Below, in pieces: positions 1,535-64,000 of a stretch of DNA of 64,000 nucleotides. The notes beneath the pieces are model-generated. The model was not told the origin of the DNA, ran no database searches, and was given only the letters and a program-made list of their open reading frames with translations. This DNA is from Eunapius fragilis (Eukaryota > Porifera > Demospongiae > Spongillida > Spongillidae): positions 5,847,626-5,911,625 of the forward strand of contig OY811980.1 in NCBI GenBank assembly GCA_963681505.1, in the 5' to 3' direction. Every line of letters starts with the position of its first letter. Position 1 is the stretch's first letter. Both the position numbers and the translations under genes were made by a program.

Positions 1535-2146
1535 AGCCATCTGCAGTGCTAATAATTAGCGCAGAGTACTCTCCGTACAGCGGACCATTCATACCAGGAT
1601 GAAAACTATAAGCCCTCACAGAAATGTTGTACACTGAGTGTGGTGTCAGGCCATGGATGGTATAATTCTGTATCCCCATGTCAGTAGTTGATATTGTAAT
1701 GTTCTCCATGATTTCCATCACTGATGCATTGTAGATAATTAGGTATCCTTGTATGAGACCTCTTGGAGTGGTTGGATACCACCATGTTAGAATGATGGAC
1801 GTAGAATTGAAAGATGTGAAGTTAAAACCAGTTGGAGGAGAAGAAATGTCTGGATATGTTGTGACAGTGATGGAAGTGAAGTTCCCAGGACCAGCCTCAG
1901 ATACTGCTTGCACACACAATGAGTAGTTTGTGTATGCCAGCAAATCAATGAGTGTGATGTTGAATGCTGTCTGGTCTGGCGCAGTAATGATGGATTGGTT
2001 TGTACCATTAAAGCAATCCGTGCTGTTAGCATAAAACAGGTCATATTTCATGACGGTGCCATTAGTGACAGATGGGGGTGTCCAAGAGACAAAGATGGCC
2101 GTAGAGTTGAGCACAGTGGCGGCAAAACTGAATGGTGCTCCAGGTA
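1535..2146 (-). CDS. Isolated FN3-FN3 exon (partial; gene context unclear)
   Basis: This 612-bp open exon has a GT donor side (GCT|GTGAGT on the minus strand) and a CCCCACAG acceptor. It encodes two FN3 domains and has the same length and phase-1 boundaries as receptor exons at 49819-50430, 55047-55658 and 61077-61688. It has no internal stop and few substitutions. FN3 hallmarks visible are the B-strand Trp of each domain (SWTPPS, TWWYP) and the Tyr-rich C'/F strands (YTNYSLCVQAV, HSVYNISVRAY). No partner exon is adjacent: a transposon end lies 965 bp downstream and unrelated sequence upstream. It could be an exon of a gene continuing left of the window or a stranded duplicate. Confidence 0.6.
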
Positions 2147-9290: not shown

Positions 9291-9292
<2 letters not shown>

Positions 9293-9343
<51 letters not shown>

Positions 9344-9908: not shown

Positions 9909-10598
9909 TAAATGAAGCTAAAGACTGTCCATCATTAATATTTAATGCATGTTCAGAACTCGTTTTGAATGACAAATACATGTATGTGCATGAACATAAA
10001 ATATTTGTAAATTCATTACTACTATCACCCGGTCCGCATCTTCCTAATCAGATTGTGAAGGGAGGATCCTCTCCCACCTTTGATTACCATACCCCCCCCC
10101 CTCCCCATTTTCTTACACCTCCCCAATCCAATTCTCCTACACTGTACCTCCCTAATCAAAACTATCATCCTCCTCACCCTCCTTCCCCCAGCCTCCTCCC
10201 CCTTACACTTCCTGTATCATCCTCACAAGCATCTCCATCATCCTTATAGTACACGCTCTCTTGTCCTCCCCCTGCTTACACAACAAAACTAGGTAACCCC
10301 AATTGAGTTAATGAGACGTGTTTTTCATGAGTGAAAAAAAAAAAACGATGTCATCGTTATATAAACACATATATTTTTAATTGCAGGGCTAAATGGGTCA
10401 CCTTTGCTGGTCAGAAGTATCAAACTATGTGTATTGTTATTCTAGGAGTGGATGAAGACTACCCTATGTTTGGGCAAGTTAAGGAACTGTACATGATTGA
10501 TACCACAAAACCTATGGCAATTGTGACTGTAATGTCAACGCTTGCATTCAACGAGCACTACCATGGCTATACATTGAGTTATTCAACCTCTACCAGGG

Positions 10599-25260: not shown

Positions 25261-25433
25261 ACACGTTTCTTCTACATCCGCGCTCAAAATGATACAAAAC
25301 TGTGCGAAAACGACTATACTTATAACTTACAAAATTATGGCAACAGCAAATGGCATTTTCAGCAGAAATCATTTATAAGCGCAGAAACATTGTGATGATG
25401 TACATGGATTTGATTACACTAATTGTTCAATCG

Positions 25434-37312: not shown

Positions 37313-37931
37313 TCAGCGACCTGACAAATTCAGCTCAACATCTTCACCACTTTGCCCTTCGTCGAATGTCACTGTCACCACTTCCTCCATGTGACGCTTA
37401 TGAAGTGATAAAGTGCGGGTGAGCTTCGCGGTGGGTCCGAGCGCTTTTATTTCTTCAGTAAAGACAGTTTCATCGGTATCAGGTTTGCCTAGAATTGTTC
37501 CGCGAGTCATCAGACTCAGCTTAGTTGATGGTCGTGTTGAAGATAGAGACCATTTATGTTTCTTGTCACGAGGCCTTAGAAGCTGTAACCACGAGAGACG
37601 AACTTCCTTATTCAGGGCGCAAAAGAAAATGAATATTAAGAAACCTTGGAACGAGTTTATCAAGGTGAACACAATCTGGAAAACCTGGTCAGCTTTCAAG
37701 ATGGTAAGTGCCCCAAAGATCCAGGTAAGGCCAAATAGGACGAATACACTAATGATGTTTATCATCAGTTGAATGGAACCAGAAATCTTGTTGTGGTCGC
37801 TTGATCGTTTCAGCGCGTGCTTAATTAGTACCACAATCACGATAACGAATATGACAGCATTGAAGGCAAGCATGAGAAGAATCGGTCCCAAGAATGCGGC
37901 AAAGAACACGGTGACATTACTAATGAAGCAG
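37313..37931 (-). CDS. Receptor last exon: TM5-TM7 and cytoplasmic tail
   Basis: The acceptor CCACAATAG precedes 37931. The exon begins CFISNVTVFFAAFLGPILL (TM5), then VFVLFGLTWIFGAL (TM6) and FQGFLIFIFFCALNKEVR (TM7 and the start of helix 8), a signature of secretin-like adhesion GPCRs. The tail is about 85 residues, Ser/Thr-rich, with HKRHMEEVVTVTFDEG near its end and stop TGA at 37313-37315. A similar HxMxEVV motif is present, duplicated, in the pseudogene tail. Confidence 0.9.
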
Positions 37932-40900
37932 CTATTGTGGTGGGGAAGATATCAGCGGAATGACAAGTGCACATGCAACCACGCGGTTAGCTTACTATCC
38001 ATACGGTGCGTCACGTTTGACAAGCAGATTTCGATCCATGGCTAGTGGAATAATTACGGGAACCAATGGTGTCACTGAAAGGTTGAAAATATAATATACT
38101 GTAACCCGAAATCATCTACAGCATACCCCAACAGACAAGAGATAGAATGATGATGTATCGCGTGGTGATCTGGAAAAACACAAGGACAAGCTTCTGGAAC
38201 ATCAGCAAGGCCTCCACCCCCATCCACATCACGGCCACCAGGGTGAAGTAGTGGACCAACACTGACACAGTCACGCAGCCTCCATAGTTCTCTGTCCTGT
38301 CAATTCCAATCACAAACACCAACAGCATACCAATGAGGGCACAGCACAGCTGAACATGGAACTTGGAGACATCCTTCTCTCTCTGCTTCCTAAGTTTTGC
38401 ATTGTGACACACGTAGGTGACTATATTAATTAACCAAATATTTTTACTTTATAAGTGTTAGGCTCATAATTGTTGCCACCAGTCCTAGAAGAGACAGTGA
38501 CACTCCAACAAAGGTGATGGCTTCCAATGCTCTTTGGACAGGTGTACTTGGAGGTTCAGGTCTGATTCTGCTTGATATGTCCTGCAATGATCAAAGTAAG
38601 AGTGCTGGGTATGACCACAGAGTAACCTTACCACTAAGATGGCAAAGTTTGTCAGGTGTGAGCATTGACACTGTATTTCGCTATTTGAAGTGTTGCTCAT
38701 GTTGGTGATGCATCCCTCTGTAGTCCAATTACCTCTCCCTCCTGATGGATAATTATGCATTTTTATAAGTGATGTTCCTTTTCATTCCATAGGACTTGTC
38801 CCTTCTTCCACAATTCCCTACCAATCTGATCATTAATACCCCCTCCTTCCTCACTGTACCTGCTGCACTAAAGTTCCAACCAATCTGATCATTAATACCC
38901 CCTCCCCTCCCTCACTGTACCTGCTGCACTAAAGTTCCAACTGACACAGTCATATCTTGAATAATTCTGCATTCAGTAATGGTCAATCAAACTCTGCTCA
39001 AAATTTTTGAAATGGTCTTACTTTGCTAGGAACAGTGAACATGAATAGAGCTGGGGTCGAAAGGTTTCCAAATGAGGTATCACTTTCTGCCACAATTGTT
39101 GCACCAAGGACGAGAGATGCTATCATGGTGCTGTTTGAAGAATTAGCTAGTGGGAAAAAGGATGCTGTGCGATAGATAGAGAAAACAAGTCCAACACGAC
39201 TGTTATTTAAGGATTTGAACAATGATGGTGGCAGGAAAACTGATGCAGTGGATGCAGGAGTAGTGGAGACACTGGAAGTGTTTCTTGTTTCTTCCAGGCT
39301 ACTATTTCCAACATCTTGTGGGGAAAAGCTAAAGCTGGTTCCCTCAACGGTAAGGTTAGCTAGAGGAATCTGGTTGGCAGGATTACTGCATGACCACAAC
39401 TTTTGTATTTCATTACAGTCAAACCTTTTGAGCAACAAGTGTTGTCTGGTTTTTTATAGAAACAAAAGATGTGAAATTTTCTTGCTCAACAAGACTTGAA
39501 GCAATGTTTTCAAATGACTTAACAATTCTGGAAATATGGGTTGTTTTAAAATGGTAAGATATTTTAATAAATTGTAATTACATTGAACCACTTCTTTCCA
39601 GCACCATTGGTGGCCAAGATTGGATACTGCTTAGGACTGTAACAACATTGGTGATGGTCTGATGAGATATAAATGTAAGTTCAAAACACACTGGCTTGCT
39701 TGTCACGTACCTCTGGCTGCACAGGAACAGATGGTGATGATATGTTGGCAATTTGAGTGAAGACATTTGTCACAACAGCCAGGTTTGAACTACTTTGGTC
39801 AACCACCTCCGAAGCTTGAGACACTACAGTCTGTAACTGTGATGTTACATTTACCACATTTTCTGAGCTGATGGTTTGCTGGTGAGCATAGATAAAAGTA
39901 AGTACTGTACAAAGATTTTCAAAAAACTTCACATTTTGTATAACTGATCCGAGTTCCTTGAACTGCTTGGTCACCACTGTGGGGCATATAGAAGCATCCT
40001 CTGTCCAGATCTGTCCATTACAGTACCGTGTTACATTTTGGCCAACTACACCATACTGACACATTTGAGACACAGTCTGACCATCCACTGCCTCTGGCCA
40101 GCTGTATGTCCCTCCTCTGTTAGCCACGTCCAGAGCACAACTGCAAAATCTGTTTGCTGTAAAGGATTAACCACAGTAGAATCATATATGATTGATTGAT
40201 AATATAATGTTAAAATAAACCTGATATAACTTGTGCACTATCTCCTAGAACAATTGCTCTGCTGGTGATGCTTTGAGATTTAAATGACTGTACAAACATG
40301 GCTATCTCAGTGGATGTCAATTTCAGAAAAATCAAAATGTTGCATTCAATCCTATATGATCCAGTAGTGACATCATTTGGACACCTAATACAAAGTGCTC
40401 ATGAGGTAAATAACCACATCAACATGTTGATTTTACCTTTGCACAGAAGTGCACAGTGCCCCCAGAGGAAATATTCCATTTATGCCATTCTCCTGAAGAC
40501 TGACATTTGCTATCATTGCTATCTGATAATGGAGCGCATGTACCAATCTTAAGATTCTGTTAAATACTAGGTTACCTCATCTTGAAACTTTAAGACAGCA
40601 GCATCATTTTGATGATTATCAACGTTGGTTAGTGTGGATATCCTGAGATATATAACCGATGGATCTGTGGTCGGTGCTATTTGGAATAATACCTGAAATA
40701 ATTGCCATAAGTAATGTTAATATAGATAGCAAGTTACCATGAAGGGTTGTTGCATTTATAGAGGTGTTAGGACCACATCCACTAATGGTAAAAGCACACA
40801 CAAAGATTGTGTATTGGGTATAATTGAAGAGGTTTTGAATTAAAACAGTGGTATTTGAAACCCCCGAAGACCTTGCTGGAATGCCATTTGACAGTCTGTA

Positions 40901-43900
40901 GGTCACCTAGATACATTAGTAATTAATACAGCATTTTATATGTCATTTCTCATAAGCCTCACCATGTATCCTAATATGATTCCATTACTACATGATGGAG
41001 GACTCCATGACACCAACAGACTGCTGTAGCTGAGGTCACTGACACTAATATTGAGAGGGGAAGAAGGAGGAGCCTGTAGGGTGGTGAATGATTGAGGCAT
41101 GGAGAATTCTCCTTCTCCTTCAGTTGTGTTTACCAACACAACAAATGAGTAAGAAGTGAATGGCACTGTGGGAACATTGGGTATCAACATTTATAAGTAG
41201 AGACATGTTAGGCCACCTACCAAGTGACATATCTTTGAGAGCTATGTATCGTTGGCTTCCAGGTACTGTAATGAAGTAACTTTGATTCTGACCATTTACA
41301 CAGTCTGCATCAACAGAGCTGGGATCATTAACAGTTACATTAACAGAGTATGAAATGACTGAATAGTTCTTTTCCAGAGGACAGCTCCAAGTGAGATTGG
41401 CAGAGGTAGCAGTGAGGGCACTGGATGGAACTTCTGGAGGTTGTGGGACCTCAGCATATTCTGTGGGGGTCATGTAGGTCATACAGGTTTCCCACTTTAG
41501 AACAGAGACAGGACTCACTGTTAAGGGATGAATCGACAACTGGTCCACTAAATGGTCCAGGACCTTTGCTTGTGTATGCTCTCACTGAAATGCTGTACTG
41601 CACACACTCCTGGAGCATATTCAGTACTAGATGATTTGGAGCACCACTGGTGTTCCTATAGTTGACACCAGTCTGTCCATTGTCCAAGGGCCATGTATAT
41701 CTCACTTCATAGGCTTTGAGGATACCATTCCTTGATATATTAGGTATCTGTTCCCAACTGACATTGACTGAAGTTGGTGCAAGTGTAATGGCAGACACTT
41801 TGATAGGTGCAGCACTAGGACCTGAAAGAAAAACCTGTTATTAGTTGCAATGATAGGATTTGAAAGAGTCAAATATATACACGGATAGTAGACTTTAAAA
41901 AAAAAACTGAAATCATTAATGGGACTATTATCTAACTAATCAGTCGAGTTGTGCACCTCACCAAAATGGAATATTGCACTGCATATGAAGGTCTAGGACA
42001 TCAGATTGTAATGAGTGTACCTTGAGTAAGATTATGTAGTAAGGGTTAATTTTCATCTGAAATAATTACGTAGTTCAACATGGTAAGTTAATAATTCATC
42101 TGCAAGTTTTCTTTGAGCAAATAAACAGTTGACCACACAATAAACTAATTTGACTTCCAGCTATTCTAATGCATTTATAATGAATCCAAAACTAATTATT
42201 TGATGATAAATTGTTTCTCACTTGTTTCTCCAGTTCTAGCAGTGACAACATTTGATTGGTGACCCTCTCCTGCTGATGTATTAGCAGTCACATAACAACA
42301 ATATTGTGTGTATGGGCTGAGTCCTGTGTTGAATGTTACAGCCAGTGTTGTCCCATTCACTACAGATCTAATGGTGGGCACATTTGGTCCAATCACTTGC
42401 TCAGGGTATGATTGGTCAATAGAAGTGTTACAGTACACAGTGTATCCAGTGATGATACCATTCCTTGGTATGGGTATAGACCAATTGGCCGAGAGGTTAT
42501 TTAGATCCAAAATAGGAGACAGAGAAAGGTGCTGAGGTGATGTAGGAACTGAAAAACGTTTGAAATGTAGCATATAATGAATTTGATCACATTCATATTT
42601 CCATAGAATTATCGCTTTTGGATAATGCATAATTACCTGATTGAGCAGTTAAAGCAGTGACCAGAGCTGATGGGCTGCTTTGGCCACAAGATGTATTAGC
42701 AGTCACATAGAAACTATACTGTGTGTATGGGTTGAGTCCTGTGTTGAATGTTACAGCCAGTGTTGTCCCATTCACTACAGATCTGATGGTGGGAATGTTT
42801 GGACCAACCACTTGCTCAGGGTATGGTTGGTTGATAGAAGTGTTACAGTACACAGAGTAACCAGTGATGATTCCATTCCTTAGTATGGGTACAGACCATG
42901 CAGCATAGAGAGCAGTTGGAGACCCAGGAACAGCGTACAGTGTGAAGTTCAGTGGTGAGGATGATACTGCGAGAAATAAAAAATCATGACTTTCAGTTAC
43001 ATCATAACAATGGAAGCAAAGACAAATTTCTAGTATGGTACGATGGCACTTAAGCATATTTAAATGCCATTAGTATGTCAATGAAGTACAGGTTGGTATA
43101 AGCCTATCATAATCACATAATGAAAAAAATTATACAATTGGAGAAAACGTATGGCATCAATGAAGACATGAACTATTGATACATAAAAATGCACACACCT
43201 GGTTGACTGGTCTGAGATATGCCAGTGATGGAAGGACTACCTTCTCCAGCACTTGTGTTAGCAGTGACATAACACTGATAGAATGTGAATGGAAGAAGGC
43301 CACTCAGGTATACAGAAGTCTGACTGGTCACATTGAAGACAGTATGGGTAGAACTACCAATTGGCACCTGTTCAGGATAGGTCTGGTTCTGTGATACTGT
43401 ACAGTACACTGTGTAGCCTGTCACAATCCCATAGGGTGGGAATGGAGGTGTCCAGTTGGCCATAAGGACACTTGAAGAGACTTCAGTAAGTCCAAAGTGT
43501 TGTGGTGATGCTGTGACTGTTTAAAAATGCCCAGCATGATATTATAGTGTGGTGTGTGAGTGTGTGTGTGTGCATGTGTGTGCATGTATGTGCTTTTGTG
43601 TGATAAGTGCTCCAACTTACCATCCGACAATGTCTGAATAAATAGCTCTTGAGAGTAATTTCCATATATTAATGAGGTTGATACACTGGGTCTGATAAGG
43701 TAGTTAAATGCCCTCACAGAAAAAGAGTATGCCATGTATGGAATGAGACCACTAAACGTGTAGGACTGTTGTGAGCTGTCATTGGTGGAGATGGTAATAT
43801 TCACTGGGTTGAATGACAGTGAAGTATTGTGCATTATCTGATACCCAGCAATGAGACCTTGGGGAGTCTGTGGATATCCCCATGTTAGCTTGATTGATGT

Positions 43901-46900
43901 AGAGTTGACAGCAGTGGCAGTAAAGTTAGTGGGAGGTGAGGATATGTCTGGGTCTGTAGTGATGACCACAGCAGTGGTGAGAGCACCAGGGCCAATCCTA
44001 GTTGAGGCCTGCACACACAGAGCATACATGCCAAATGGAACCAGATTAGTCAAGGTTGCATTGTATGTTGTCTGCCCTGGTACAGAAGGAATATGTTGAC
44101 TTGTTCCACTTGTAGTACAATTACCAAAAGTACTGATGGAATAGTACAGATCATAACTAGTAATGATTCCATTGAGAATGGTTGGTTCTGCCCATGAGAC
44201 AAACAGCACTGATGAATTGACTACTGAGGAGGTCAGGGCATTAGGAGTACCAGGAACTGTGGTATAGGGTACAATCATTCAATAACATCCTTTTAAAGTA
44301 GTGCACAAAACATACCATCTTCATTTGTTGATACCATGATATCAGAACTGCTGTTGCCAAGGGTTACTGTAAGGGCTCTCACAGAAATGAAATATTCCTT
44401 GTAAATAGACAGGCCAGTGAGGAGAGTGCTGTTGGTAACATTTGTATTCACAACAGAAGTAGTTTCAGCTCCTCCTGAAAGTGTGTAGTTCACTTGGTAG
44501 CCTCTGATGATGCCATTTGAGAACTGGGGTGGTTGCCAGGTAACCATGATGGAGGTAGAGCTGGTGTTGTAGGCCACAACATTGAGGGGAGGGGAGGGGG
44601 CTAGGATGGTTTGATGGTATGCAGGTCAAAGGTTGATGCAGTACACACTCTCACAATACATACCATCCTCTGAAGTGAGCTGACTAACAGGATCACTGTA
44701 GACACTTGTTCCTCCACTGGTCACCACACTCACTCTGAAGGTGTACAAGGTATAGAAGGCAAGTCCACTTATAGTTAGTGATGTGGTCAGTGTGGTGATG
44801 TTAGTGGTTCCATTAGTGTTCTCTGCTGGGTAGTACACAACCACATACATCTGTATGATGCCATTGGGAAACTGGGGGCGTGTCCAATTTAGAGTAATTG
44901 CAGTAGAATTTTGATTGTATGCAGTAAGGTTATATGGAGGAGGTGGGGCTGGAAAAAAAAAGTATCAGTATATGAAGTGAACTTACCAAGCTCAATGAAC
45001 AACATACTTCCTTCAACTGTACTGGATGTTGATATATCTGAAGGGCCTCCCTCTCCCACTGATGTGTTAGCAGTCACATAACAACTATATTGTGTGTAAG
45101 TATTAAGCCCAGTCAGTGTAACTGCCAGTGTTGTCCCATCGACTATAGATCTAATGGTGGATACATTTGATCCAATCAGTTGCTCTGGATATGTTTGATT
45201 AGCAGAAATGTTACAGTACACAGAGTAACCAGTGATGATACCATTCCTAGGTATGGGTACAGACCAACTAGCAGACAGCTGAGATGGTGAACCAGCAATA
45301 TAAGTCAGATAAAACTTCTGAGGTGATGATGGAACTATAGAAGAATAATGATCATTAGGAAGAAATGCATAATGGGATACATAACGAATATGGGGCCACA
45401 AATTTAGCAAACTTGCATAAATGATGCAAGCCAATAAATAATGAACAAAGCAGTATCTAATTAACATTTACCATCTTGACTGGTCTGATATATACTGATG
45501 TTGGAGGGACTTCCCTCTCCAGCACTAGTGTTAGCAGTGACATAACACTGGTAGAATGTGAATGGAAGAAGGCCACTCAGGTATACAGAAGTCTGACTGG
45601 TCACGTTGATAACAGTATAGATAGAAGCACCAGTTGGCACCTGTTCAGGATAGGTCTGGTTCAGTGAAACTGTGCAGTACACTGTGTAGCCTGTCACAAT
45701 CCCATTGGGTGAGGATGGAGGTGTCCAGTTGGCCATAAGGACACTTGAAGAGACTGCAGAGAGCTGGAAGTTCAGTGGCATTGAGGGAACTGCAGAAACA
45801 TATTAAAATATCAATAACATGTGTTACTAAATAACATCACTATACGTACCATCTTGTAATGTTCCGATAACTAGTTGCTGGTTATAGTTTCCGTATATTT
45901 GGGCACTAAGCCTGGTAGAATAGCTGTATGCTCTTACAGTAAATGAATACACTGTAAACGGATTAAGACCAATAAACGTGTAGGACTGTTGTGAGCTGTC
46001 ATTGGTGGAGATGGTAATATTCACTGGGTTGAATGACAGTGAAGTATTGTGCATTATCTGATACCCAGCAATGAGACCTTGGGGAGTCTGTGGATATCCC
46101 CATGTTAGCTTGATTGATGTAGAGTTGACAGCAGTGGCAGAAAAGTTAGTGGGAGGTGAGGATATGCCTGGGTCTGTAGTGATGACCACAGCAGTGGTGA
46201 GAGCACCAGGGCCAATCCTAGTTGAGGCCTGCACACACAGGGCATACATGCTAAATGGAACCAGATTAGTCAAGGTTGCATTGTATGTTGCCTGCCCTGG
46301 TACAGAAGGAATATGTTGACTTGTTCCACTTGTAGTACAATTACCAAAAGTACTGATGGAATAGTACAAGTCATAACTAGTAATGATTCCATTGACAGCA
46401 GTTGGTTCTGCCCATGAGACAAAGAGAGCTGATGAATTGACTACTGAGGAGGTCAGGGCATTAGGAGTATCAGGCACTGTGATTAAAACGATTGTAGGAT
46501 GATATGAACATTATTTTAAGTATGTACACAAAACATACCATCTTCATTTGTTGATACCGTGACAGCAGAACTGCTGTTGCCAAGGGTTACTGTAAGGGCT
46601 CTCACAAAAACAATATATTTTGTGTAAATGGACAGGCCTCTGAGGAGAGTGCTGTTGGAATCATTTGTATTCACAGCATAAGTAGTTCCGGCTTCTCCTG
46701 AAAGTGTATAGTTCACTTGGTAGCCTCTGATGATGCCATTTTGGAACTGGGGTGGTTGCCAAGTAACCATGATGGAGGTGGAGCTGGTGTTGTAGGCCAC
46801 AACATTGAGGGGAGGGGAGGGGGCTAGGATGGTTTGATGGTATGCAAGTCAAAGAATGATGCAGTTCACACTCTCAAAATACATACCATCTTCTGAAGTG

Positions 46901-52900: not shown

Positions 52901-55900
52901 TTCTCCCACTGATGTATTAGCAGTCACATAACAACTATATTGTGTGTATGGGCTAAGTCCACTCAGTGTAGCAGCCAGTGTTGTCCCATTGACTACAGAT
53001 CTAATGGTGGGCACATTTGGTCCAATCATTTGCTCTGGATATGTTTGATTAGCAGAAGTGTTGCAGTACACAGAGTAACCAGTGATGATACCATTCCTAG
53101 GTATGGGTACAGACCAACTAGCAGACAGCTGAGATGGTGAGCCAGCAATGGAAGACAGAGAGATGTTCAGAGGTAGTGATGGAACTGCAAGGAAAATTGC
53201 CATAAGGTCTAAGGGTGTTTAAAATTAGGGAATTAGAAAAACAGGAACATAGAGGAAATGGAACATTTAGGACCATTTCCCCTTACCATTCCCTAGTCCC
53301 CCACCCTATTTTTACATATCTGTTGGCTGTCCTATACAGTTAGGAGAGTACTGTATGAACTGTTAATATCAATAATGTGTGTAATATTTGATACTTACCT
53401 GCGTGATTGGTTTGTGTAGTGTTGGTATCTGAGGGATTTCCTTCACCAGCACGAGTGTTAGCAGTGACATAACACTGGTAGAATGTGAATGGAAGAAGGC
53501 CACTCAGGTATACAGAAGTCTGACTGGTCTCATTGAAGACAGTATAGGTAGAAGCACCAGTTGGCACCTGTTCAGGATAGGTCTGGTTCTGTGATACTGT
53601 GCAGTACACTGTGTAGCCTGTCACAATCCCATCGGGTGAGGATGGAGGTGTCCAGTTGGCCATAAGGACACTGGATGTGACTGCAGAGAGCTGGAAGTTT
53701 AGCGGCATTGAGGGTACTGTGGAAATGCACAGAGAAAGGTATAAATTAAAGTACGACATAATATCTTTACTACTTTAATATTCATTGAGATATACCTAGA
53801 TATAACAAGAGGATTCATGAAAATGTTGAAACCTGGTGTAGTACAAACCATTATAATATTCAGAAGAAGGCAACCACTACAACTGTTGATAGGCAAGTGT
53901 GCACATTTGTGCCGATGAACTGTATAATATACTGGATGCATGTACCATATGTGTGCATGCACAACACCACTCATGGATGTGTGATGCACTAAAAATGAAC
54001 AATTACTTTGAGTGCTCTCCATACAGTGGAGCATTCAGACCAGGATGAAATTATAAGTCCTCACAGAAATGTTGTACACTGTGTAGGGTGTCAGGCCACA
54101 GATGGTATAATTCTGTACACCTGTGTTAGTAGTTGCTATTGTATTATGTATGGGACATTGTGATGCTGGATATCTCTATGTTAAAGTGATGGATATAGAG
54201 TTTAAACATGTGGCACTAAAAGCTGTAGGAGGAGCGAGATCTGGATATCAGGTGTTCTGATAGGCATTGATAAGAAGATCCCAGCTGATGCTTGCAAATC
54301 AGTATATACCAGCAAATCAATGTGTTTTAACATATCTATAGCCTGATGGACTTATACCTTCAATGCATTTAGCACTGTTAAATGTAAAGCGGTCTTAAAG
54401 GATGACGATGGCATTGCCATTTGTGACAGATTGGGACTTCTAAGCAACCGCTGTGCAGCACTCACAAAACGTTGTACAACATGGTGCGGACAGCAACATT
54501 TTGCTAGCTACTTCACACTATAATTATGCATTCATATGATTGACTGGCCTGGCTCCATATCATATTGATATTATACCAAGCATCTTTGTTTTTAGAAATT
54601 AAAAATTTATTTTCATCGTGCACAAACAGAGCATGTTTGATTTCACGAAACTAGCACTCGTAAAGTAGAGCTAAAAGGGAGCGTGTGGTTGTATTTAATG
54701 AATGTGGCAGTGTCTAGCAAAGTCATCCTTCTGTGGTTATAAATTTGTCAGTATAAAAATTGAATGATCAACCACTTGTACCTGGAGATGTGTTATTAAT
54801 GGCAACAAAAATATCTTGAGCACTACAATACGTTTCCATAGCAAGAGTTTTAGGAGAAAAGTGCAGTCGGGTTGCAAAGACGTATTGATTAAATATTATA
54901 ACCTACAATTGTTGTTGATAAAAGTATAATCACAATACGGTGATTTTGCTGGGCAGTGTCACACATATCTTTGGAGGCAACAGAGAACTACCAATGTTTT
55001 GCAAAGCACCCATCATGTGCATGTGTGCATGCATCACATTACTCACAGCCATCTGCAGTGCTAATAATTAGCGCAGAGTGCTCTCCGTACAGCGGACCAT
55101 TCATACCAGGATGAAAACTATAAGCCCTCACAGAAATGTTGTACACTGAGTGTGGTGTCAGGCCATGGATGGTATAATTCTGTATCCCCATGTCAGTAGT
55201 TGATATTGTAATGTTCTCCATGATTTCCATCACTGATGCATTGTAGACAATCAGGTATCCCTGTATGAGACCTCTTGGAGTAGTTGGATACCACCATGTT
55301 AGAATGATGGACGTAGAATTGAAAGATGTGAAATTAAAACCAGTTGGAGGAGAAGAAATGTCTGGATATGTTGTGACAGTGATGGAAGTGAAGTTCCCAG
55401 GACCAGCCTCAGATACTGCTTGCACACACAATGAGTAGTTTGTGTATGCCAGCAAATCAACGAGTGTGATATTGAATGCTGTCTGGTCTGGCACAGTAAT
55501 GATGGATTGATTTGTACCATTAAAGCAATCCGTACTGTTAGCATAAAACAGGTCATATTTCATGATGGTGCCATTAGTGACAGATGGGGGTGTCCAAGAG
55601 ACAAAGATGGCCGTAGAGTTGAGCACAGTGGCGGCAAAACTGAATGATGCTCCAGGTACTGTGGGGAAATGAGAATCCAAAATTAATGCTTGGCTTTAGC
55701 TAAATGTATTACATAAGTAGGGGGGAAAATGCTAGCTGATGTATTCCTTCCCCGCCTATGCATATGTTGTATGCTGTTGCAATTGAATTGCAGTTAATAT
55801 ACTGCAACTATGTCTTACACCAATTATGCATAACAATGTGCCAATTGCATGCTCACAAGCACTCCAACTGAATTCTTTGCTTACAGATCGGATGTAAACC

Positions 55901-58900
55901 TATTCCATGATTGTATACATATAATACTGTCTATTTGCATCCTAAAATGTGTACAGTGGTACACAAATTACTCCTTTCATTTTGCTGCATTATATCTCAT
56001 ACCAGCAGTGAGCATTTTACACAACTTGTGAAAATCTATACCCCCTATGGTGGTGCTAACTTGTGGTTAAGTGTGTCATGAAATGCTAATTTTGGCTAAT
56101 TGCAATAACAACTCTTAATTCTGTTATCTATAGCACTGCAGAACACTGCAAAAGTTAGAAATTAAAACAAACATGATGGGAACATTCTCAATAAGTCAAA
56201 TTTTATCCACATAGTTTGTTTTGTATGTACATCAAACAAATGCTGTTCCTTTTTGGTAATCACTTTTAAAGTCATATGCTCTAATTTGTGTACGCCTGTA
56301 CACATATTACATTGCTTCACTATAGTAGTTTACTGTTTTCAAATGAGTATTGAAATTGATAGAGGGCATGATGTAGTAACTATATAATATGAAAGTATTC
56401 ATGCATGTGGTTGTATCAGGAAAGTTTTGCAGTAAAATGTGTACAGGTGTACACAAATTAGTCTATGTAGGAAAATGATGTTCAATGCAAAAGAATCTTG
56501 CAAATTCAATCACTTGTGTATCAAAAAACAGCAACATGCTAAATGTTCATGTTAGTATCACTTCATCATCTCAGGGCAGACTGCTGCTTTAGGTTTTGAG
56601 GTTTTACTCCTTCACTCCTACTTGCACTTCCTCTACCTCCACTTGCACTCCCTCTACCTCTACTTGCACTTTCTCTATCTCTACTTTAGACTACTTGCAC
56701 TACTTGCACTTCCTCTACTCGCACTTCCTCTACCTCTACTTGCACTTCCCTACCATGCCTCCACTACTCACTCTTTCACTATTTGCACCTTCAGTGCTTG
56801 CGCCTCCACTATTTGCGCCTCCACCATTTGTGCCTCCACTATTCGAGCCTTCAGTGCTCGTGCCTCCACTATTCGCGCCTCCGCCATTTGTGCCTCCACT
56901 ATTTGTGCCTCCGCTATTCGAGCCGTCAGCTCGATCGTGCCTCCTCTACTCGCGCCTCGACTATTCGCGCCTCCTCCATTTGTGCCTCCACTATTCGAGC
57001 CTTCAGTGCTCGTGTCACCTCTACTCGCGCCTCCACTATTCGCGCCTCCACTATTTGCACCTCCACTACTCGCGCCTCCACCATTTGCACCTCCACTATT
57101 CGAGCCTTCAGTGCTTGTGCCTCCACTGTCAACACATCCTCTTGCTCTGCGTACACGTACACCTCAGTCACATGCGCTTTGTTTTTCAAATGTTGTTTAT
57201 TTGTTAGATAACAATCAAATAATTTGAATTAATAGTGACCATCAATTAATAATCTGTTGTGTACTCAGATATTGATTTTTGAATAAAAAATGTGATTACT
57301 TACAAAGATAAGGTAGGGTAAGTAATTTGTGCTCCCCTGTACACATATTACCCAATATGTGTACAGGTGTACACACGGATGCAAATAGACAATACACCAG
57401 CTCATTACATAAGCTAACTAGGAGAATTAAGGAAATAATCAATCGTGAATTTATTCAAATAATAGACTTGTATTTAGATCATTTAAATAACCATTGTTAG
57501 TGTTTTGCTACACGTGGGTCTGTCGTTCACATAGAATACACACATGCACATGCACACCAAACGCACAGAAAACATGCACAAACACACAGAAATAATGCTC
57601 CCACTAACACACTTGTATTCAGTGTGGATGTGATGGAGAAAGCTTGACTATAGTTATCAATACAATGACAGGTAAATATTTATAATGCATTTAAAAAGTT
57701 TATTTTCCCCCATAATTTAAATCAGTGACGTTTTCTAAGATATGACATGCAGTGGACCAATCAGTACTTACAGTATACGAATTTTAATAGTGAGTTACTT
57801 AACTTGCATAAAGTTATTGAGATTCAAGATCATATATATTTATTAAGAAGGTTATTAAAAATTTGGCACATTACTCCATAACATTTGATTTTTTGATATT
57901 GTAGCGAAAAGGGACCTAAAAATTACCAGGACGGAGCATCAAAGTTCATGCATGCAAGTGAAATTACGCATGATAAAAAATTCAGGCCACTGCCATTCCA
58001 TGATGGACACACTAATTTCCTGTGCGGAAGGAAGAAGTTATAGGGGACATAAGAATCTCTTAGAGTATTTGAAAACATGGAAAATGTACGTTAGGCCACA
58101 TTTTGCTGCGTCGATTACATTTCATCTTGTATTAAAAACACAACAAAAAAATTGTAGATGGAAATATTGCATTTATTTAAAAGCTTTGCCTTCATTCGCG
58201 AACGCCTGGCCTACCAATTCACGTACACCATGCACTGACTGTGTGCAAGCACTCAACATCCAAATGAGATATAAAGCAACATTGCCGACATACATGTCCT
58301 TGAAAGGTAGGGTGTTTCTGAACTAGCAAAGGCAAATCGAATCTAGCCCCACTGTGTTCAATGAGTGTAATCAGTTAGTACAGTTATGAATAAATGCCAA
58401 AAGTATGTATCTTTGCATAACATACACTTCAGAGCTAAATCTTACCAGCATCAACAGTCCTAGCTAGGCCCAATGCAGAAGGACTTCCCTCTCCTGCTGA
58501 TGTATTAGCAGTGACATAACAACTATACTCTGTGTATGGACTGAGTCCTGTGTCGAATGCTACAGTCAATGTTGTTCCATTCACTACAGATCTAATGGTG
58601 GGCTCATTTGGTCCAATCACTTGCTCTGGATATGTTTGATTTCCAGACGTGTTACAATACACAGAGTAACCAGTGATGATACCATTACTAGGTATGGGTA
58701 CAGACCAACTAGCAGACAGCTGAGATGGTGAACCAGCAACAGGAGACAGAGAGAAGTTTTGAGGTGTCGTTGGAACTGCAAATAAATAGTGATGATTTGT
58801 TAGTAAGGTTTACACTAGAAGCAAAGTTTGAAAGGGCATGTTTCATAGATTTTGGATCGTAAGCAACAGCATAATAGCATAACAGATTACCTGACTGAAC

Positions 58901-61900
58901 AGTAATCGTGGTGAATACAACTGATGGACTTCCTTCTCCCACTGATGTATTAGCAGTCACATAACAACTATATTGTGTGTATGGGCTAAGTCCACTCAGT
59001 GTAGCAGACAGTGTTGTCCCATTGACTACAGATCTAATGGTGGGTACATTTGGTCCAATCATTTGCTCTGGATATGTTTGATTAGCAGAAGTGTTGCAGT
59101 ACACAGAGTAACCAGTGATGATACCATTCCTAGGTATGGGTACAGACCAACTAGCAGACAGCTGAGATGGTGAGCCAGCAATGGAAGACAGAGAGATGTT
59201 CAGAGGTAGTGATGGAACTGCAAGGAAAATTGCCATAAGGTCTAAGGGTGTTTAAAATTAGGGAATTAGAAAACAGGAACATAGAGGAAATGGAACATTT
59301 AGGACAATTTTCCCTTACCATTCCCTAGTCCCCCACCCTATTTTACATTTCTGTTGGCTGTCCTATACAGTTAGGAGAGTACTGTATGAACTGTAATATC
59401 AATAATGTGTGTAATGTTTGATACTTACCTGCCTGATTCGTTTGTGTAGTGTTGGTATCTGAGGGATTTCCTTCACCAGCACTAGTGTTAGCAGTGACAT
59501 AACACTGGTAGAATGTGAATGGAAGAAGGCCACTCAGGTATACAGAAGTCTGACTGGTCTCATTGAAGACAGTATAGGTAGAACCACCAGTTGGCACCTG
59601 TTCAGGATAGGTCTGGTTCTGTGATACTGTACAGTACACTGTGTAGCCTTTCACAATCCCATCGGGTGAGGATGGAGGTGTCCAGTTGGCCATAAGGACA
59701 CTGGATGTGACTGCAGAGAGCTGGAAGTTTAGCGGCATTGAGGGTGCTGTGGAAATGCACAAAGAAAGGTATAAATTAAAGTACGACATAATCTCTTTAC
59801 TACTTTAATATTCATTGAGATATACCTAGATATAACAAGAGGATTCATGAAAATGTTGATACCTGGTGTAATACAAACCATTATAATATTCAGAAGAAGG
59901 CACCCACTACAACTGTTGATAGGCAAGTGTGCACATTTGTGCTGATGAACTGTATAATATACTGGATGCATGTACCATATGTGTGCATGCACCACACCAC
60001 TCATGGATGTGTGATGCATTAAAAATGAACAATTACTTTGAGTGCTCTCCATACAGTGGAGCATTCAGACCAGGATGAAATTATTAGTCCTCACAGAAAT
60101 GTTGTACACTGTGTAGGGTGTCAGGCCACAGATGGTATAATTCTGTACCCCTGTGTTAGTAGTTGCTATTGTATTATGTATGGGACATTGTGATGCTGGA
60201 TATCTCTATGTTAAAGTGATGGATATAGAGTTTAAACATGTGGCACTAAAAGCTGTTGGAGGAGCGAGATCTGGATATCAGGTGTTCTGATAGGCATTGA
60301 AGAGAAGATCCCAGCTGATGCTTGCAAATCAGTATATACCAGCAAATCAATGTGTTTTAACATATCTATAGCCTGATGGACTTATACCTTCAATGCATTT
60401 AGCACTGTTAAGTGTAAAGTGGTCTTAAAGGATGACGATGGCATTGCCATTTGTGACAGATTGGGACTTCTAAGCAACCGCTGTGCAGCACTCACAAAAC
60501 GTTGTACAACATGGTGCGGACAGCAACATTTTGCTAGCTACTTCACTCTATAATTATGCATTCATAAGATTGACTGGCCTGGCTCCATATCACATTGATA
60601 TTATACCAAGCATCTTTGTTTTTAGAAATTAAAAATTTATTTTCATCGTGCACAAACAGAGCATGTTTGATTTCACGAAACTAGCACTCGTAAAGTAGAG
60701 CTAAAAGGGAGCGTGTGGTTGTATTTAATGAATGTGGCAGTGTCTAGCAAAGTCATCCTTCTGTGGTTATAAATTTGTCAGTATAAAAATTGAATGATCA
60801 ACCACTTGTACCTGGAGATATGTTATTAATGGCAACAAAAATATCTTGAGCACTACAATACATTTCCATAGCAAGAGTTTTGAGAGAAAAGTGCAGTCAG
60901 GTTGCAAAGACATACTGATTAATTATTATAACCTACAATTGTTGTTGATAAAAGTATAATCACAATACGGTGATTTTGCTGGGCAGTGTCAAGCATATCT
61001 TTGGAGGCAACAGAGAACTACCAATGTTTTGCAAAGCACCCATCACGTGCATGTGTGCATGCATCACATTACTCACAGCCATCTGCAGTGCTAATAATTA
61101 GCGCAGAGTACTCTCCGTTCAGTGGACCATTCATACCAGGATGAAAACTATAAGCCCTCACAGAAATGTTGTACACTGAGTGTGGTGTCAGGCCATGGAT
61201 GGTATAATTTTGTATCCCCATGTCAGTAGTTGATATTGTAATGTTCTCCATGATTTCCATCACTGATGCATTGTAGACAATCTGATATCCTTGTATGAGA
61301 CCTCTTGGAGTAGTTGGATACCACCATGTTAGAATGATGGACGTAGAATTGAAAGATGTGAAATTAAAACCAGTTGGAGGAGAAGAAATGTCTGGATATG
61401 TTGTGACAGTGATGGAAGTGAAGTTCCCAGGACCAGCCTCAGATACTGCTTGCACACACAATGAGTAGTTTGTGTATGCCAGCAAATCAACGAGTGTGAT
61501 ATTGAATGCTGTCTGGTCTGGCACAGTAATGATGGATTGATTTGTACCATTAAAGCAATCCGTACTGTTAGCATAAAACAGGTCATATTTCATGATGGTG
61601 CCATTAGTGACAGATGGGGGAGTCCAAGAGACAAAGATGGCCGTAGAGTTGAGCACAGTGGCGGCAAAACTGAATGATGCTCCAGGTACTGTGGGGAAAT
61701 GTGAATCCGAAATTAATGCTTGGCTTTAGCTAAATGTATTACATAAGTAGGGGGGAAAATGCTAGCTGATGTATTCCTTCCCCGCCTGTATGCTGTTGCA
61801 ATTGAATTGCAGTTAATATACTGCAACTATGTCTTACACCAATTATGCATAACAATGTGCCAATTGCATACTCACAAGCTACTCCAACTGAATTCTTTGC

Positions 61901-64000
61901 TTACAGATCTGATGTAAACCTATTCCATGATTGTATACATATAATACACCAGCTCATTACATAAGCTAACTAGGAGAATTAAGGAAATAATCAATCGTGA
62001 ATTTATTCAAATGATAGACTTGTATTTAGATCATTTAAATAACCATTGTTAGTGTTTTGCTACACGTGGGTCTGTCGTTCACATACAATACACACATGCA
62101 CATGCACACCAAACGCACAGAAAACATGCATAAACACACAGAAATAATGCTCCCACTAACACACTTGTATTCAGTGTGGATGTGATGGAGAAAGCTTGAC
62201 TATAGTTATCAATACAATGACAGGTAAATATTTGTAATGCATTTAAAAAGCTTATTTTCCCCCATAATTTAAATCAGTGACGTTTTCTAAGATATGACAT
62301 GCAGTGGACCAATCAGTACTTACAGTATACGAATTTTAATAGTGAGTTACTTAACTTGCATAAAGTTATTGAGATTCAAGATCATATATATTTATTAAGT
62401 AGGTTATTAAAAATTTGCACATTACTCCATAACATTTGATTTTTTGATATTGTAGCGAAAAGGGACCTAAATATTACCAGGACGGTTCTTCAAAGTTCAT
62501 GCGTGCAAGTGAAATTACGCATAATAAAAAATTCAGGCCACTGCCATTCCATGATGGACACACTAATTTCCTGTGCAAAAGGAAGATGTTATAGGGGACA
62601 TAAGAATCTCTTAGAATATTTGAAAACATGGAAAATGTACGTTAGGCCACATTTTGCTGCGTCGATTACATTTCATCTTGTATTAATAACACAACAAAAA
62701 AATTGTAGATGGAAATATTGCATTTATTTAAAAGCTTTGCCTTCATTCACGAATGCCTGGCCTAACAATTCACGTACACAATGCACTGACTGTGTGCAAG
62801 CACTCAACATCCAAATGAGATATAAAGCGACATTGCCAACATACATGTCCTTGAAACGTATGGTGTTTCCAAACTAGCAAAGGCAAATCGAATCTAGCCC
62901 CACTGTGTTCAATGAATGTAATCAGTTAGTCCAGTTATGAATAAATGCCAAAAGTATGTATCTTTGCATAACATACACTTCAGAGCTAAATCTTACCAGC
63001 ATCAACAGTCCTAGCTAGGCCCAATGCAGAAGGACTTCCCTCTCCTGCTGATGTATTAGCAGTGACATAACAACTATACTCTGTGTATGGACTGAGTCCT
63101 GTGTCGAATGCTACAGTCAATGTTGTTCCATTCACTACAGATCTAATGGTGGGCTCATTTGGTCCAATCACTTGCTCTGGATATGTTTGATTTCCAGAAG
63201 TGTTACAATACACAGAGTAACCAGTGATGATACCATTCCTAGGTATGGGTACAGACCAACTAGCAGACAGCTGAGATGGTGAACCAGCAACAGGAGACAG
63301 AGAGAAGTTTTGAGGTGTCGTTGGAACTGCAAATAAATAGTGATGATTTGTTAGTAAGGTTTACACTAGAAGCAAAGTTTGAAAGGGCATGTTTCATAGA
63401 TTTTGGATCGTAAGCAACAGCATAATAGCATAACAGATTACCTGACTGAACAGTAATCATGGTGAATACAACTGATGGACTTCCTTCTCCCACTGATGTA
63501 TTAGCAGTCACATAACAACTATATTGTGTGTATGGGCTAAGTCCACTCAGTGTAGCAGACAGTGTTGTCCCATTGACTACAGATCTAATGGTGGGTACAT
63601 TTGGTCCAATCATTTGCTCTGGATATGTTTGATTAGCAGAAGTGTTGCAGTACACAGAGTAACCAGTGATGATACCATTCCTAGGTATGGGTACAGACCA
63701 ACTAGCAGACAGCTGAGATGGTGAGCCAGCAATGGAAGACAGAGAGATGTTCAGAGGTAGTGATGGAACTGCAAGGAAAATTGCCATAAGGTCTAAGGGT
63801 GTTTAAAATTAGGGAATTAGAAAACAGGAACATAGAGGAAATGGAACATTTAGGACCATTTTCCCTTACCATTCCCTAGTCCCCCACCCTATTTTTACAT
63901 ATCTGTTGGCTGCCCTATACAGTTAGGAGAGTACTGTCTGAACTGTAATATCAATAATGTGTGTAATATTTGATACTTACCTGCCTGATTGGTTTGTGTA
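37313..64000 (-). CDS. Giant FN3-repeat adhesion GPCR, 3' portion (5' end outside window)
   Basis: Role, from family knowledge: a cell-surface receptor whose FN3 stalk contacts other cells or matrix. The GAIN/GPS self-cleaves and the seven-helix part signals through G proteins. Seen here on the minus strand: about 33 FN3 domains over about 30 exons (E1 at the right edge to 40738), a hormone-receptor-like Cys module (40437-40547, 39711-40156), a GAIN-type stalk (39022-39658), GPS (38632-38966), 7TM and tail (37313-38581). FN3 exons are 285, 318, 327, 330 or 612-636 bp with phase-1 borders, so they can be duplicated without frame loss. No signal peptide is visible because the start is off-window. 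One splice junction (38420/38448) does not close in frame. Neighbouring 30960-32742 is a dead copy of its 3' end. Confidence 0.85.
37996..38074 (-). CDS. Receptor exon: end of TM4 and extracellular loop 2
   Basis: 79 bp, phase 1 to 2, encoding TPLVPVIIPLAMDRN and KRDAPYG. The Cys that follows in the next exon (YCFIS) would pair with the TM3 Cys. Confidence 0.85.
38127..38420 (-). CDS. Receptor exon: TM2-TM4
   Basis: Encodes NAKLRKQREKDVSKFHVQLC (loop 1 and start of TM2), LIGMLLVFVIGIDRTENYGG, CVTVSVLVHYFTLVAVMWMG (TM3, with its Cys) and the start of TM4 up to CWG at a phase-1 donor. The 5' border at 38420 is tentative: it implies a 27-nt intron and leaves the frame two bases out. Confidence 0.75.
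38448..38581 (-). CDS. Receptor exon: TM1
   Basis: Starts DISSRIRPEPPSTPVQ, then TM1 LEAITFVGVSLSLLGLVATI. Ends ATAAA|GTAAAAAT (phase 2). The pseudogene has the same exon with the same end. Confidence 0.85.
38632..38741 (-). CDS. Receptor exon: GPS cleavage motif
   Basis: Encodes GNWTTEGC...CQCSHLTNFAILV. CxCxHLT is the canonical GPS; self-cleavage would fall between Leu and Thr and leave TNFAILV as the tethered agonist. 110 bp, phase 1 to 0. Confidence 0.9.
38921..38966 (-). CDS. Receptor mini-exon: GPS first Cys and Trp
   Basis: 46 bp, between TGAATGCAG and GTACAGTGAGG, encoding NYSRYDCVSWNFSAA. It supplies the first GPS Cys and the conserved Trp (CxxW), and its phases (0 to 1) fit the exons on both sides. 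Its last 20 bases and donor are repeated 60 bp downstream (38861-38880). Confidence 0.85.
39022..39658 (-). CDS. Receptor exons: GAIN-type stalk
   Basis: Exons 39582-39658 (TITNVVTVLSSIQ) and 39022-39445 (FDCNEIQKLWSC, then LPPSLFKSLNNSRVGLVFSI and SLVLGATIVAES). The sequence pattern of a helical subdomain followed by FxxxSRVGLVFSIYRT strands is typical of GAIN domains. Many N-linked glycosylation sequons. Phases 0-2 and 2-0 agree. Confidence 0.8.
39711..40156 (-). CDS. Receptor exon: hormone-receptor-like (HormR) module and GAIN helix
   Basis: Encodes CALDVANRGGTYSWPEAVDG, CQYGVVGQNVTRYC and GQIWTEDASICP, the Cys/Trp pattern of HormR domains (W, G, C...C, W...C). A helical GAIN segment with TSQLQTVVSQASEVVDQ follows. 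The start was chosen at CTTTACAG|CA because only this acceptor joins in frame to the exon at 40221-40287. Confidence 0.8.
40221..40287 (-). CDS. Receptor small exon between stalk modules
   Basis: 67 bp, acceptor TTGTACAG, encoding SFKSQSITSRAIVLGDSAQV, donor GTTTATTT (weak). Phase 0 to 1. Confidence 0.65.
40437..40547 (-). CDS. Receptor small exon, Cys-rich
   Basis: 111 bp, phase 0 both ends, encoding IGTCAPLSDSNDSKCQ and SSGGTVHFCAK with three Cys. Lies directly before the HormR module. Confidence 0.75.
40576..40676 (-). CDS. Receptor small exon after the FN3 array
   Basis: 101 bp encoding TTDPSVIYLRISTLTNV and AAVLKFQDE. The acceptor CCAAATAG was preferred over TTTCAG because it keeps the frame. 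Confidence 0.7.
40738..41460 (-). CDS. Receptor exons: two membrane-proximal FN3 domains in three exons
   Basis: Exons 41221-41460, 40963-41165 and 40738-40906. Unlike the rest of the array, these FN3 domains are split internally: a phase-1 intron of 55 bp before VPFTSYSFVVLVNTTEG and a phase-0 intron after GIILGYM. The middle exon is the one retained in the pseudogene at about 32560-32742. Confidence 0.85.
41519..42548 (-). CDS. Receptor exons: two FN3 domains
   Basis: Exons 42222-42548 (327 bp; NWSIPIPRNGIITGYTVYC) and 41519-41821 (303 bp; VNVSWEQIPNISRNGILKAY). One FN3 each, phase 1 both sides. Confidence 0.85.
42637..43516 (-). CDS. Receptor exons: two FN3 domains
   Basis: Exons 43199-43516 (318 bp; MANWTPPFPPYGIVTGYTVY) and 42637-42966 (330 bp; AAWSVPILRNGIITGYSVYC), one FN3 each. 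The order of a 318-bp exon followed by 327/330-bp exons recurs upstream. Confidence 0.85.
43621..45789 (-). CDS. Receptor FN3 block 1 (five exons, six FN3)
   Basis: Exons from 5': 45472-45789 (318), 45008-45334 (327), 44664-44948 (285), 44316-44600 (285), 43621-44256 (636, two FN3). The same five-exon series follows upstream as block 2 with high identity, so the block was duplicated as a unit. Confidence 0.85.
45850..48498 (-). CDS. Receptor FN3 block 2 (five exons, six FN3)
   Basis: Exons from 5': 48181-48498 (318), 47234-47560 (327), 46887-47171 (285), 46539-46823 (285), 45850-46476 (627, two FN3). Paralogous to block 1 exon by exon. An extra stretch (about 47580-48180), unique to this copy, lies in the intron. 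Confidence 0.85.
48782..49240 (-). pseudogene. Fossil FN3-FN3 exon inside receptor intron, copy 1
   Basis: Aligns along its length to the working exon at 49819-50430 (for example CTCTCCATACAGTGGAGCATTCAGACCAGGATGAAA-type sequence, kept here in shortened form) but has frame-breaking indels and no usable splice sites. The same relic is at about 54010-54460 and 60040-60490, and partly at 571-930. Confidence 0.75.
49819..50430 (-). CDS. Receptor exon: FN3-FN3 (block 3)
   Basis: 612 bp, phase 1. Two FN3 domains (TAIFVSWTPPSVTNG; SIILTWWYPTTPRGL). Paralogues at 55047-55658 and 61077-61688, and the displaced copy at 1535-2146. Confidence 0.9.
51726..52067 (-). CDS. Receptor FN3 exon with shifted splice donor
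   Basis: One FN3 (SSNWSVPIPRNGLIIGYTVYC). Compared with 58446 and 62997, eight bases (ACCAGCAT in plus orientation) including the donor are missing. The next in-phase donor, GAAGT|GTATGT at 51720-51725, restores phase 1, giving a 342-bp exon with extra residues EDLALK. Confidence 0.7.
52280..52318. repeat. Poly-G tract in receptor intron
   Basis: About 30 uninterrupted G, found only in this unit. Confidence 0.95.
52416..53184 (-). CDS. Receptor exons: two FN3 (block 3)
   Basis: Exons 52858-53184 and 52416-52742, both 327 bp, phase 1, differing mainly in the last third (SVGEGSPSVVFTTITVQSG versus SVGQGSPSAILTALSAQSG). Confidence 0.88.
53399..53716 (-). CDS. Receptor exon: FN3 (318 bp type)
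   Basis: MPLNFQLSAVTSSVLMANWT start, phase 1. First exon of block 3; near-identical to 59429-59746 and close to 48181-48498. Confidence 0.9.
54010..54460 (-). pseudogene. Fossil FN3-FN3 exon, copy 2
   Basis: Counterpart of 48782-49240 in the next tandem unit. Confidence 0.75.
55047..55658 (-). CDS. Receptor exon: FN3-FN3 (block 4)
   Basis: 612 bp, phase 1, same splice borders as 49819-50430; differs by a few residues. Confidence 0.9.
55928..57391. mobile_element. 1,464-bp insertion with TIRs in one receptor unit
   Basis: Its ends are TGTCTATTTGCATCC and the exact inverse GGATGCAAATAGACA, flanked by ATAC (55924-55927 and 57392-57395). The empty site ATAATACACCAGCTC is present in the neighbouring unit at about 61941. 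Inside are GTGTACA(G)GTGTACAC palindromes near both ends and a 15-bp minisatellite. A 4-bp duplication with these ends does not match a superfamily I can name. No transposase. Confidence 0.85.
56600..57140. repeat. 15-bp-type minisatellite inside the insertion
   Basis: CCTCCACTATTCGCG-like units (variants with TTTGTG, TTCGAG, CTCGCG) preceded by a CTCTACTTGCACTTC-type array. Open in all three plus-strand frames (Pro/Ser/Leu-rich) for up to about 200 codons; probably not a gene. Confidence 0.85.
58446..58775 (-). CDS. Receptor chimeric FN3 exon (block 4)
   Basis: 330 bp, phase 1. The N-terminal part (SGNQTYPEQVIGPNEPTIR) matches exon 52416-52742. The C-terminal part (TLTVAFDTGLSPYTEYSCYV, GLARTVD) matches exon 51726-52067. 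The switch lies within the shared CATTCACTACAGATCTAATG stretch at about 58577-58603. Confidence 0.88.
58891..59217 (-). CDS. Receptor exon: FN3 (327 bp type, block 4)
   Basis: Near-identical to 52858-53184 and 63442-63768. Confidence 0.9.
59429..59746 (-). CDS. Receptor exon: FN3 (318 bp type, block 4)
   Basis: First exon of block 4; near-identical to 53399-53716. Confidence 0.9.
60040..60490 (-). pseudogene. Fossil FN3-FN3 exon, copy 3
   Basis: Counterpart of 48782-49240. Confidence 0.75.
61077..61688 (-). CDS. Receptor exon: FN3-FN3 (block 5)
   Basis: 612 bp, phase 1; same family as 55047-55658. Confidence 0.9.
62997..63326 (-). CDS. Receptor chimeric FN3 exon (block 5)
   Basis: 330 bp; same chimeric structure as 58446-58775, so the recombinant exon was copied after it formed. 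Confidence 0.88.
63442..63768 (-). CDS. Receptor exon: FN3 (block 5)
   Basis: 327 bp, phase 1; near-identical to 58891-59217 (one visible change is a Met for Thr in VVFTMITVQSG). Confidence 0.9.
63981..64000 (-). CDS. Receptor FN3 exon, cut by window edge
   Basis: Starts after the donor-side ATACTTAC, as at 53399 and 59429, and encodes the end of a 318-bp-type FN3 exon. The array therefore continues beyond the window. Confidence 0.8.

Follow-up and report, generated by a model that had tools for sequence, protein, structure and literature searches.

A sponge adhesion GPCR gene with a long FN3 array that probably grows by copying of intron-containing blocks and shrinks by misaligned recombination

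In adhesion GPCRs the GAIN domain self-cleaves at the GPS and pulling on the stalk exposes a tethered agonist, and in one of them, ADGRV1/VLGR1, a very long ectodomain is made of one repeated domain type, Calx-beta. FN3 is listed among the adhesion-GPCR ectodomains of animals and their relatives in passages of PMC12716839, and the parts of PMC4302439 on the sponge Amphimedon queenslandica, which also name ADGRV1/VLGR1, describe adhesion GPCRs with GPS and 7tm_2, list fn3 among the N-terminal domains for Figure 4, and report HRM in at least eight of these receptors. Concerning coding arrays, PMC11462820 describes the LPA kringle IV-2 repeat as a coding VNTR of 5.6 kb per unit with 1-40 units per allele, and passages of PMC1578592 describe a single-exon FN3 in tenascin-W that has been repeatedly duplicated, from 4 to 12 between species.

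Here, we analysed a 64,000-nucleotide stretch of the genome of the sponge Eunapius fragilis (the window, C10:5847626-5911625, where C10 is OY811980.1; genome 218.9 Mb, 24 contigs), which holds on its minus strand the 3′ part of a gene, gene B, consisting of an FN3 array and then the GAIN, GPS and 7TM exons (Table 1). As in ADGRV1, one domain type is repeated along a long ectodomain, Calx-beta there and FN3 here, and the two 7TM regions are weakly similar (E 4.4e-8). Like the Amphimedon queenslandica receptors, gene B joins GPS and 7tm_2 with fn3, whereas section 8 of PMC4302439 describes no FN3-array amplification, block duplication or chimeric exons, all of which gene B has. Multi-kilobase coding units are shared with LPA (5.6 kb there, about 5-6 kb per block in gene B), but the work on LPA (PMC11462820) deals with kringles, a secreted protein and documented allele counts, and gene B with FN3 domains in a GPCR and one genome. 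Repeated FN3-exon duplication is shared with tenascin-W (PMC1578592), a matrix protein in which, however, a single exon was copied, whereas gene B copies multi-exon blocks and also has fused exons, of which the tenascin-W passages contain none. FN3 adhesion GPCRs, FN3-exon duplication and intragenic block VNTRs are each known, and gene B combines them. The preliminary description of this DNA knew of no published adhesion GPCR with so recently amplified a stalk; this stands insofar as text searches of open-licence literature, which misses most subscription papers, turned up no adhesion GPCR with a block-amplified FN3 stalk, and the first 300,000 characters of a 2026 adhesion-GPCR review (PMC13197933) mention neither FN3 nor FNIII, but not for sponge adhesion GPCRs with FN3 as such, which are published (PMC4302439).

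The conceptual splice of gene B runs in frame through 42 exons (12,971 nt) and encodes 4,322 aa with one terminal stop and 174 N-glycosylation sequons; 25 array exons were placed by a splice-site caller and 17, from window position 41821 to the stop, by hand with the frame kept. In the C-terminal 1,159 aa, Pfam found fn3, a GPS (E 1.4e-13, sequence CQCSHLTNFAILV, with the HL/T cleavage site present) and a 7tm_2 domain (E 6.8e-35) that places the 7TM region in class B2, and among solved structures the adhesion GPCRs were the nearest to it, with ADGRG2 best (E 1.8e-44), before the secretin-type receptors. The Pfam GAIN model was not listed for this part at E up to 0.1, and similarity to GAIN was found by phmmer, with 14 solved adhesion-GPCR chains matched at E up to 0.01, among them ADGRG6 (query residues 120-376), Latrophilin-1, BAI3 and others. 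GPS, 7TM and GAIN similarity together bear out the earlier assignment to the adhesion GPCRs. The three membrane-proximal FN3 domains, two of which are split by introns, are of an older kind than those of the array. An HRM domain in the Cys-rich exon was rejected, because the score of 14.8 bits against a cut-off of 26.2 makes it HRM-like only. No signal-peptide exon was found for gene B; the search for its 5′ end led to C10:5930794-5933562, which resembles, at 86% and 83%, sequences that precede two further cluster genes. Rfam gave no match within the window.

The array was recounted with a profile built on the window's open reading frames and with the splice-site caller, which did not force the phase. 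Gene B has 33 intact FN3 domains in the window (40738-63768, all on the minus strand) and three relics, so that the earlier estimate of about 33 was exact, and the array does run off the window as had been stated, since beyond a run of 5,000 N at C10:5911626-5916625, which starts where the window stops and which we take to be masked sequence, C10:5916902-5918505 holds one more two-domain FN3 exon and another relic, bringing the visible intact domains to 35. The Pfam fn3 check covered part of the array and found the domain in five single-domain exons (E 1.6e-13 to 4.1e-18), in two two-domain exons (61078-61686, E 9.2e-29; 49814-50467, E 1.8e-27) and in the three membrane-proximal domains (E 4.4e-30, three stretches). 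Phase-1 borders, which the preliminary description had seen on almost every exon, were found on 122 of 124 array exons of at least 280 nt from six gene copies, and the other two are neighbouring exons merged by the caller in one open frame; because nearly every array exon is of phase 1-1, the loss or gain of whole exons leaves the frame intact. Exon 51726-52067 lacks the donor that serves its sister copies, so that its splicing would have to use a weak alternative. The relics, 'YPASQ' pieces, were rejected as functional FN3 exons because of stops and frame changes in copy 60071, the one of the three that was read.

Table 1. Features of the window, in window coordinates unless C10 is given
Feature	Position	Strand	Basis or remark
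Gene B 7TM exons: 37313-37931 (with stop), 37996-38074, 38127-38389, 38448-38581	37313..38581	-	Pfam 7tm_2
GPS and C-terminal GAIN exons: 38632-38741 (CQCSHLTNFAILV), 38921-38966, 39022-39369	38632..39369	-	Pfam GPS, GAIN similarity
N-terminal GAIN part, Cys-rich exon 39711-40156, short linker exons	39425..40664	-	In-frame splice
Three membrane-proximal FN3: exons 40738-40906, 40963-41165, 41221-41460, 41519-41821	40738..41821	-	Pfam, splice
Array 3′ zone: 15 FN3 domains, including two APPPP / APSPP / two-domain exon units	42222..47560	-	Caller, splice
Block 0 (partial): FN3 exon 48181-48498, relic, two-domain exon 49819-50430	48181..50430	-	DNA identity, caller
Block I: 51726-52067, 52416-52742, 52858-53184, 53399-53716, two-domain 55047-55658	51726..55658	-	
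Block II: fused 58446-58775, 58891-59217, 59429-59746, two-domain 61077-61688	58446..61688	-	
Block III, cut by window end: fused 62997-63326, exon 63442-63768	62997..64000	-	
Chimeric FN3 exon	58446..58775	-	5′ part like 52416-52742, 3′ part like 51726-52067
FN3 relics in introns	48813-48947, 54041-54175, 60071-60205	-	Profile; one copy read in all frames
Gene A, most 5′ FN3 exon found (two domains)	1535..2146	-	Gene A 7TM outside the window at C10:5822516

The order within the gene B blocks is the two-domain exon, the relic, the VPSMP, VPSLP and VPTTP exons and, where present, the VPSSPS exon. Copying of blocks of several exons with their introns, as claimed in the preliminary description, is seen in an identity of 95-98%, introns included: 95.2% between 48131-52070 and 59389-63329, 97.0% between 52444-55927 and 58474-61947, and 98.1% between 57391-59448 and 61943-64000. 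A multi-exon unit with introns is repeated inside gene B, as in a coding VNTR of the LPA type; Tandem Repeats Finder, with periods up to 500, was blind to these blocks. Between blocks I and II lies a 1.46-kb stretch (55927-57391) with a 15/30-bp minisatellite. Neighbouring blocks differ by 2.2-2.7% in introns (three comparisons) and by 0.5-3.3% in exons, and the 2.8% of exon difference between blocks II and I is raised by a fused exon. Between blocks I and 0, exons differ as much as introns (3.33% vs 2.68%), and therefore constraint is not evident there.

The window belongs to a 118.5-kb contig (H, C10:5821626-5940158) between 200-N gaps at 5821426-5821625 and 5940159-5940358, and both neighbouring contigs (L and R) carry inverted near-identical copies of its ends. 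Identity between the last 14.8 kb of L and inverted H is 99.3%; in 500-bp windows it is 100.0% in 24 of 29 and 99.8% in three, and it drops to 93.7 and 95.7% in the remaining two, which lie at the upstream end. With H reversed, R shares 26.8 kb (97.8%) and 5.5 kb (96.5%), and the 5′ unit of R is 100% identical to block III of H over 1 kb and 99-100% identical to block II over most of its length. As the scaffold is interrupted by gaps and duplicated on both sides of H, some copies may be assembly leftovers, and sequence comparison is compatible both with H as a second haplotype inserted between its partners and with inverted duplicates. A transposon-like element of 5.3 kb, of which the genome has 10 nearly complete copies at 99-100%, is present in the window whole at 6672-12014 and with its ends at 1-570, the two copies being inverted; one of them lies within a relic FN3 exon that belongs to gene A, and R has clean empty sites for both. 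Window 25427-27508 holds remnants of a hAT-type transposase (Dimer_Tnp_hAT E 1.1e-9, DUF4371 E 1.1e-18).

In blocks II and III, one fused exon replaces two exons, its 5′ part resembling the VPTTP exon and its 3′ part the VPSSPS exon of block I, which holds both parents. At the 76 diagnostic sites of exon 58446-58775, the best split separated 37:2 (left) from 3:34 (right), a chi-square reached by 0 of 5,000 shuffles; the fused exon of block III (76 sites) gave 0 of 5,000 as well, and so did that of the gene B copy on R (73 sites, 33:2 and 1:37). A chimera of the same type occurs in gene A on H, where C10:5841615-5841941 consists of the 5′ part of L exon 5806171 and the 3′ part of the next, 5806613 (40 sites, 18:1 and 2:19, 0 of 5,000 shuffles); compared with L, this copy is shorter by 442 bp and one FN3, and gene A on R has the same junction (C10:5989857-5990183). 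The fused state is more likely the derived one, because the two-exon order also occurs elsewhere in these arrays. In-frame chimeras without the intervening DNA indicate that array length changed via recombination between neighbouring exons; judged by their sequence, such exons are what unequal recombination leaves, and the earlier suggestion of an array that changes its own length is thereby strengthened.

Sister arrays were counted in the same way. Gene A has 41 intact FN3 domains on H. On L it has 39, the contig stopping short of the final three, and the shared part has 38 (H) against 39 (L), in copies that may be alleles or duplicates. The gene B copy on R has 29 FN3 up to the contig end, with the exon order as on H, and, as the R contig begins inside the array, there is no countable difference between H and R for gene B. 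For gene C (7TM at C10:6059452), a 14-kb stretch was fetched that holds 11 intact FN3 and one damaged, the 5′ side of the gene lying outside it. The APPPP/APSPP/two-domain unit occurs five times in gene A on H, twice in gene B on H and once in gene C, and the VPGA two-domain exon once, at least four times and, in the fetched stretch of gene C, not at all; as these counts differ, the sisters amplified different parts of apparently one ancestral array. On R, gene A (C10:5986552-5990608) has five intact FN3, and then homology to the other copies stops inside an exon, which would be a rearrangement or an assembly break; 4.7 kb past the break lies a 3.85-kb element with a 100% inverted copy at C10:6072638-6076483. 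Downstream of gene B is another adhesion-GPCR 7TM, 'P' (window 31450-32236, C10:5879075-5879861; FN3 piece at window 32543), without an adjoining FN3 array in this contig; R has a near-identical copy, a version 92% alike lies downstream of gene C, and two other receptors of C10 are 88-89% alike. The idea that gene C and the broken gene A copy on R are halves of one gene, with C as the 3′ one, was dropped, since a P-like 7TM follows it as it follows gene B, and by its sequence gene C looks like a B-type duplicate.

A search with one exon gave at least 150 matches, on C10, C15, C6 and C1. At C15:4831769-4904153, single-FN3 exons of the same kind as in gene B are densely set at a spacing of about 430 bp, with no 7tm_2 match within 0.7 Mb among the matches listed, and may belong to another receptor or adhesion gene; these runs imply that FN3 amplification extends beyond gene B. 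Adjoining the cluster, a gene at C10:5780412-5794334 combines tandem Ig-like exons with FN3 and a protein tyrosine phosphatase domain (Y_phosphatase E 2.9e-31), so that tandem ectodomain exons occur here in a receptor of another type as well.

It might be argued that the gene B blocks are an assembler's false duplications of a single unit, as H lies between two gaps and its ends, matched inverted by L and R, have the look of a retained second haplotype. This is very improbable, given that the blocks in H differ by 2-3% and have each their own indels, unlike assembler echoes, that R, assembled apart, agrees with H in block order and in the fused exon, and that R has nothing matching the 1.46-kb stretch which separates blocks I and II on H. 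A weightier possibility, to which we give somewhat less than even odds, is that H and R, together with the 5′ part of L vs H, are true inverted segmental duplicates, in which case length differences would exist between paralogues only. At gene scale, L and H have nothing in common upstream of about C10:5801700, L having the Ig/receptor-phosphatase gene and H an intergenic stretch before gene B, and the 5′ end of gene A exists in three versions (L, H and R), more than two alleles provide; both points favour at least some duplication. R, on the other hand, keeps the order of reversed H even in intergenic DNA (88-98%), has the empty transposon sites, and reaches an identity of 100% over 4 kb, as alleles would show.

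Two further alternatives concern the gene itself. Were the FN3 array and the 7TM exons separate transcription units, for which the hand-placed membrane-proximal exons and the conceptual nature of the splice leave room, a continuous in-frame splice on the same strand with intron-sized gaps would not be expected, and the order of array, three FN3, Cys-rich/GAIN and 7TM recurs in gene A on H, gene B on R and gene C, so that we regard this as hardly credible. The chimeric exons could also have come from gene conversion, or from mutation with selection, instead of length-changing recombination, and length-neutral exchange tracts do exist here, R being 100% identical to block III of H over 1 kb and about 96% beside it. 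However, conversion alone would not remove the DNA between the parents, and 442 bp are gone in gene A and the second exon is absent from blocks II and III of gene B; this explanation is improbable.

Based on these findings, we propose, with a probability of about 0.78, that gene B encodes an adhesion GPCR with a long FN3 array that grows by intron-containing block copies and shrinks by misaligned recombination. Its architecture, exon phases, block copies, chimeric exons and sister unit counts are read from the DNA itself. In this proposal the array exons would be followed by the three older FN3 domains, the GAIN domain with its canonical GPS and the 7TM region, and array and 7TM would be spliced as one message. 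The array would grow when multi-exon blocks are copied with their introns, and would shrink when misaligned neighbours recombine, sometimes inside exons, to give in-frame chimeric FN3, and its length may still vary in the population, as the preliminary description thought probable for alleles or individuals. By analogy with other adhesion GPCRs, GAIN would cleave at HL/T of the GPS, and the exposed TNFAILV stretch, which we take to be the tethered agonist, would signal. The array may serve as a long adhesive spacer, with a pull on the stalk exposing the agonist; an FN3 domain is 3-4 nm long, and 35 of them would span roughly 100-140 nm.

That the stalk might diversify recognition, as the preliminary description suggested, is so far unsupported by the comparison of synonymous and non-synonymous differences. 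Pooled dN/dS was 0.37-0.57 in seven comparisons between copies: 0.37 for the pooled exons of blocks II-I and III-II, 0.57 for blocks I-0, 0.50 for gene B on H vs R, where 21 exons of 7,830 nt in all have 168 differences, and 0.42-0.50 for gene A units (four comparisons). Such values point to constraint or relaxed constraint, with no sign of diversifying selection. The broader idea that FN3 stalks are hypermutable coding VNTRs, whose new lengths and chimeras would make the receptor sets of individuals differ and serve cell-cell or self recognition, is improbable in our estimate.

In conclusion, the intermediates of growth and shrinkage, namely block copies, relic exons and chimeric exons, are readable in one genome. 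If stalk length varies between individuals, gene B would be a signalling receptor with a coding VNTR in which each unit amounts to an entire adhesion domain. In that case the evolution of giant adhesion-GPCR stalks would be open to long-read testing, and the sponge would offer a natural stalk-length series for studying how ectodomain length relates to mechanical activation.
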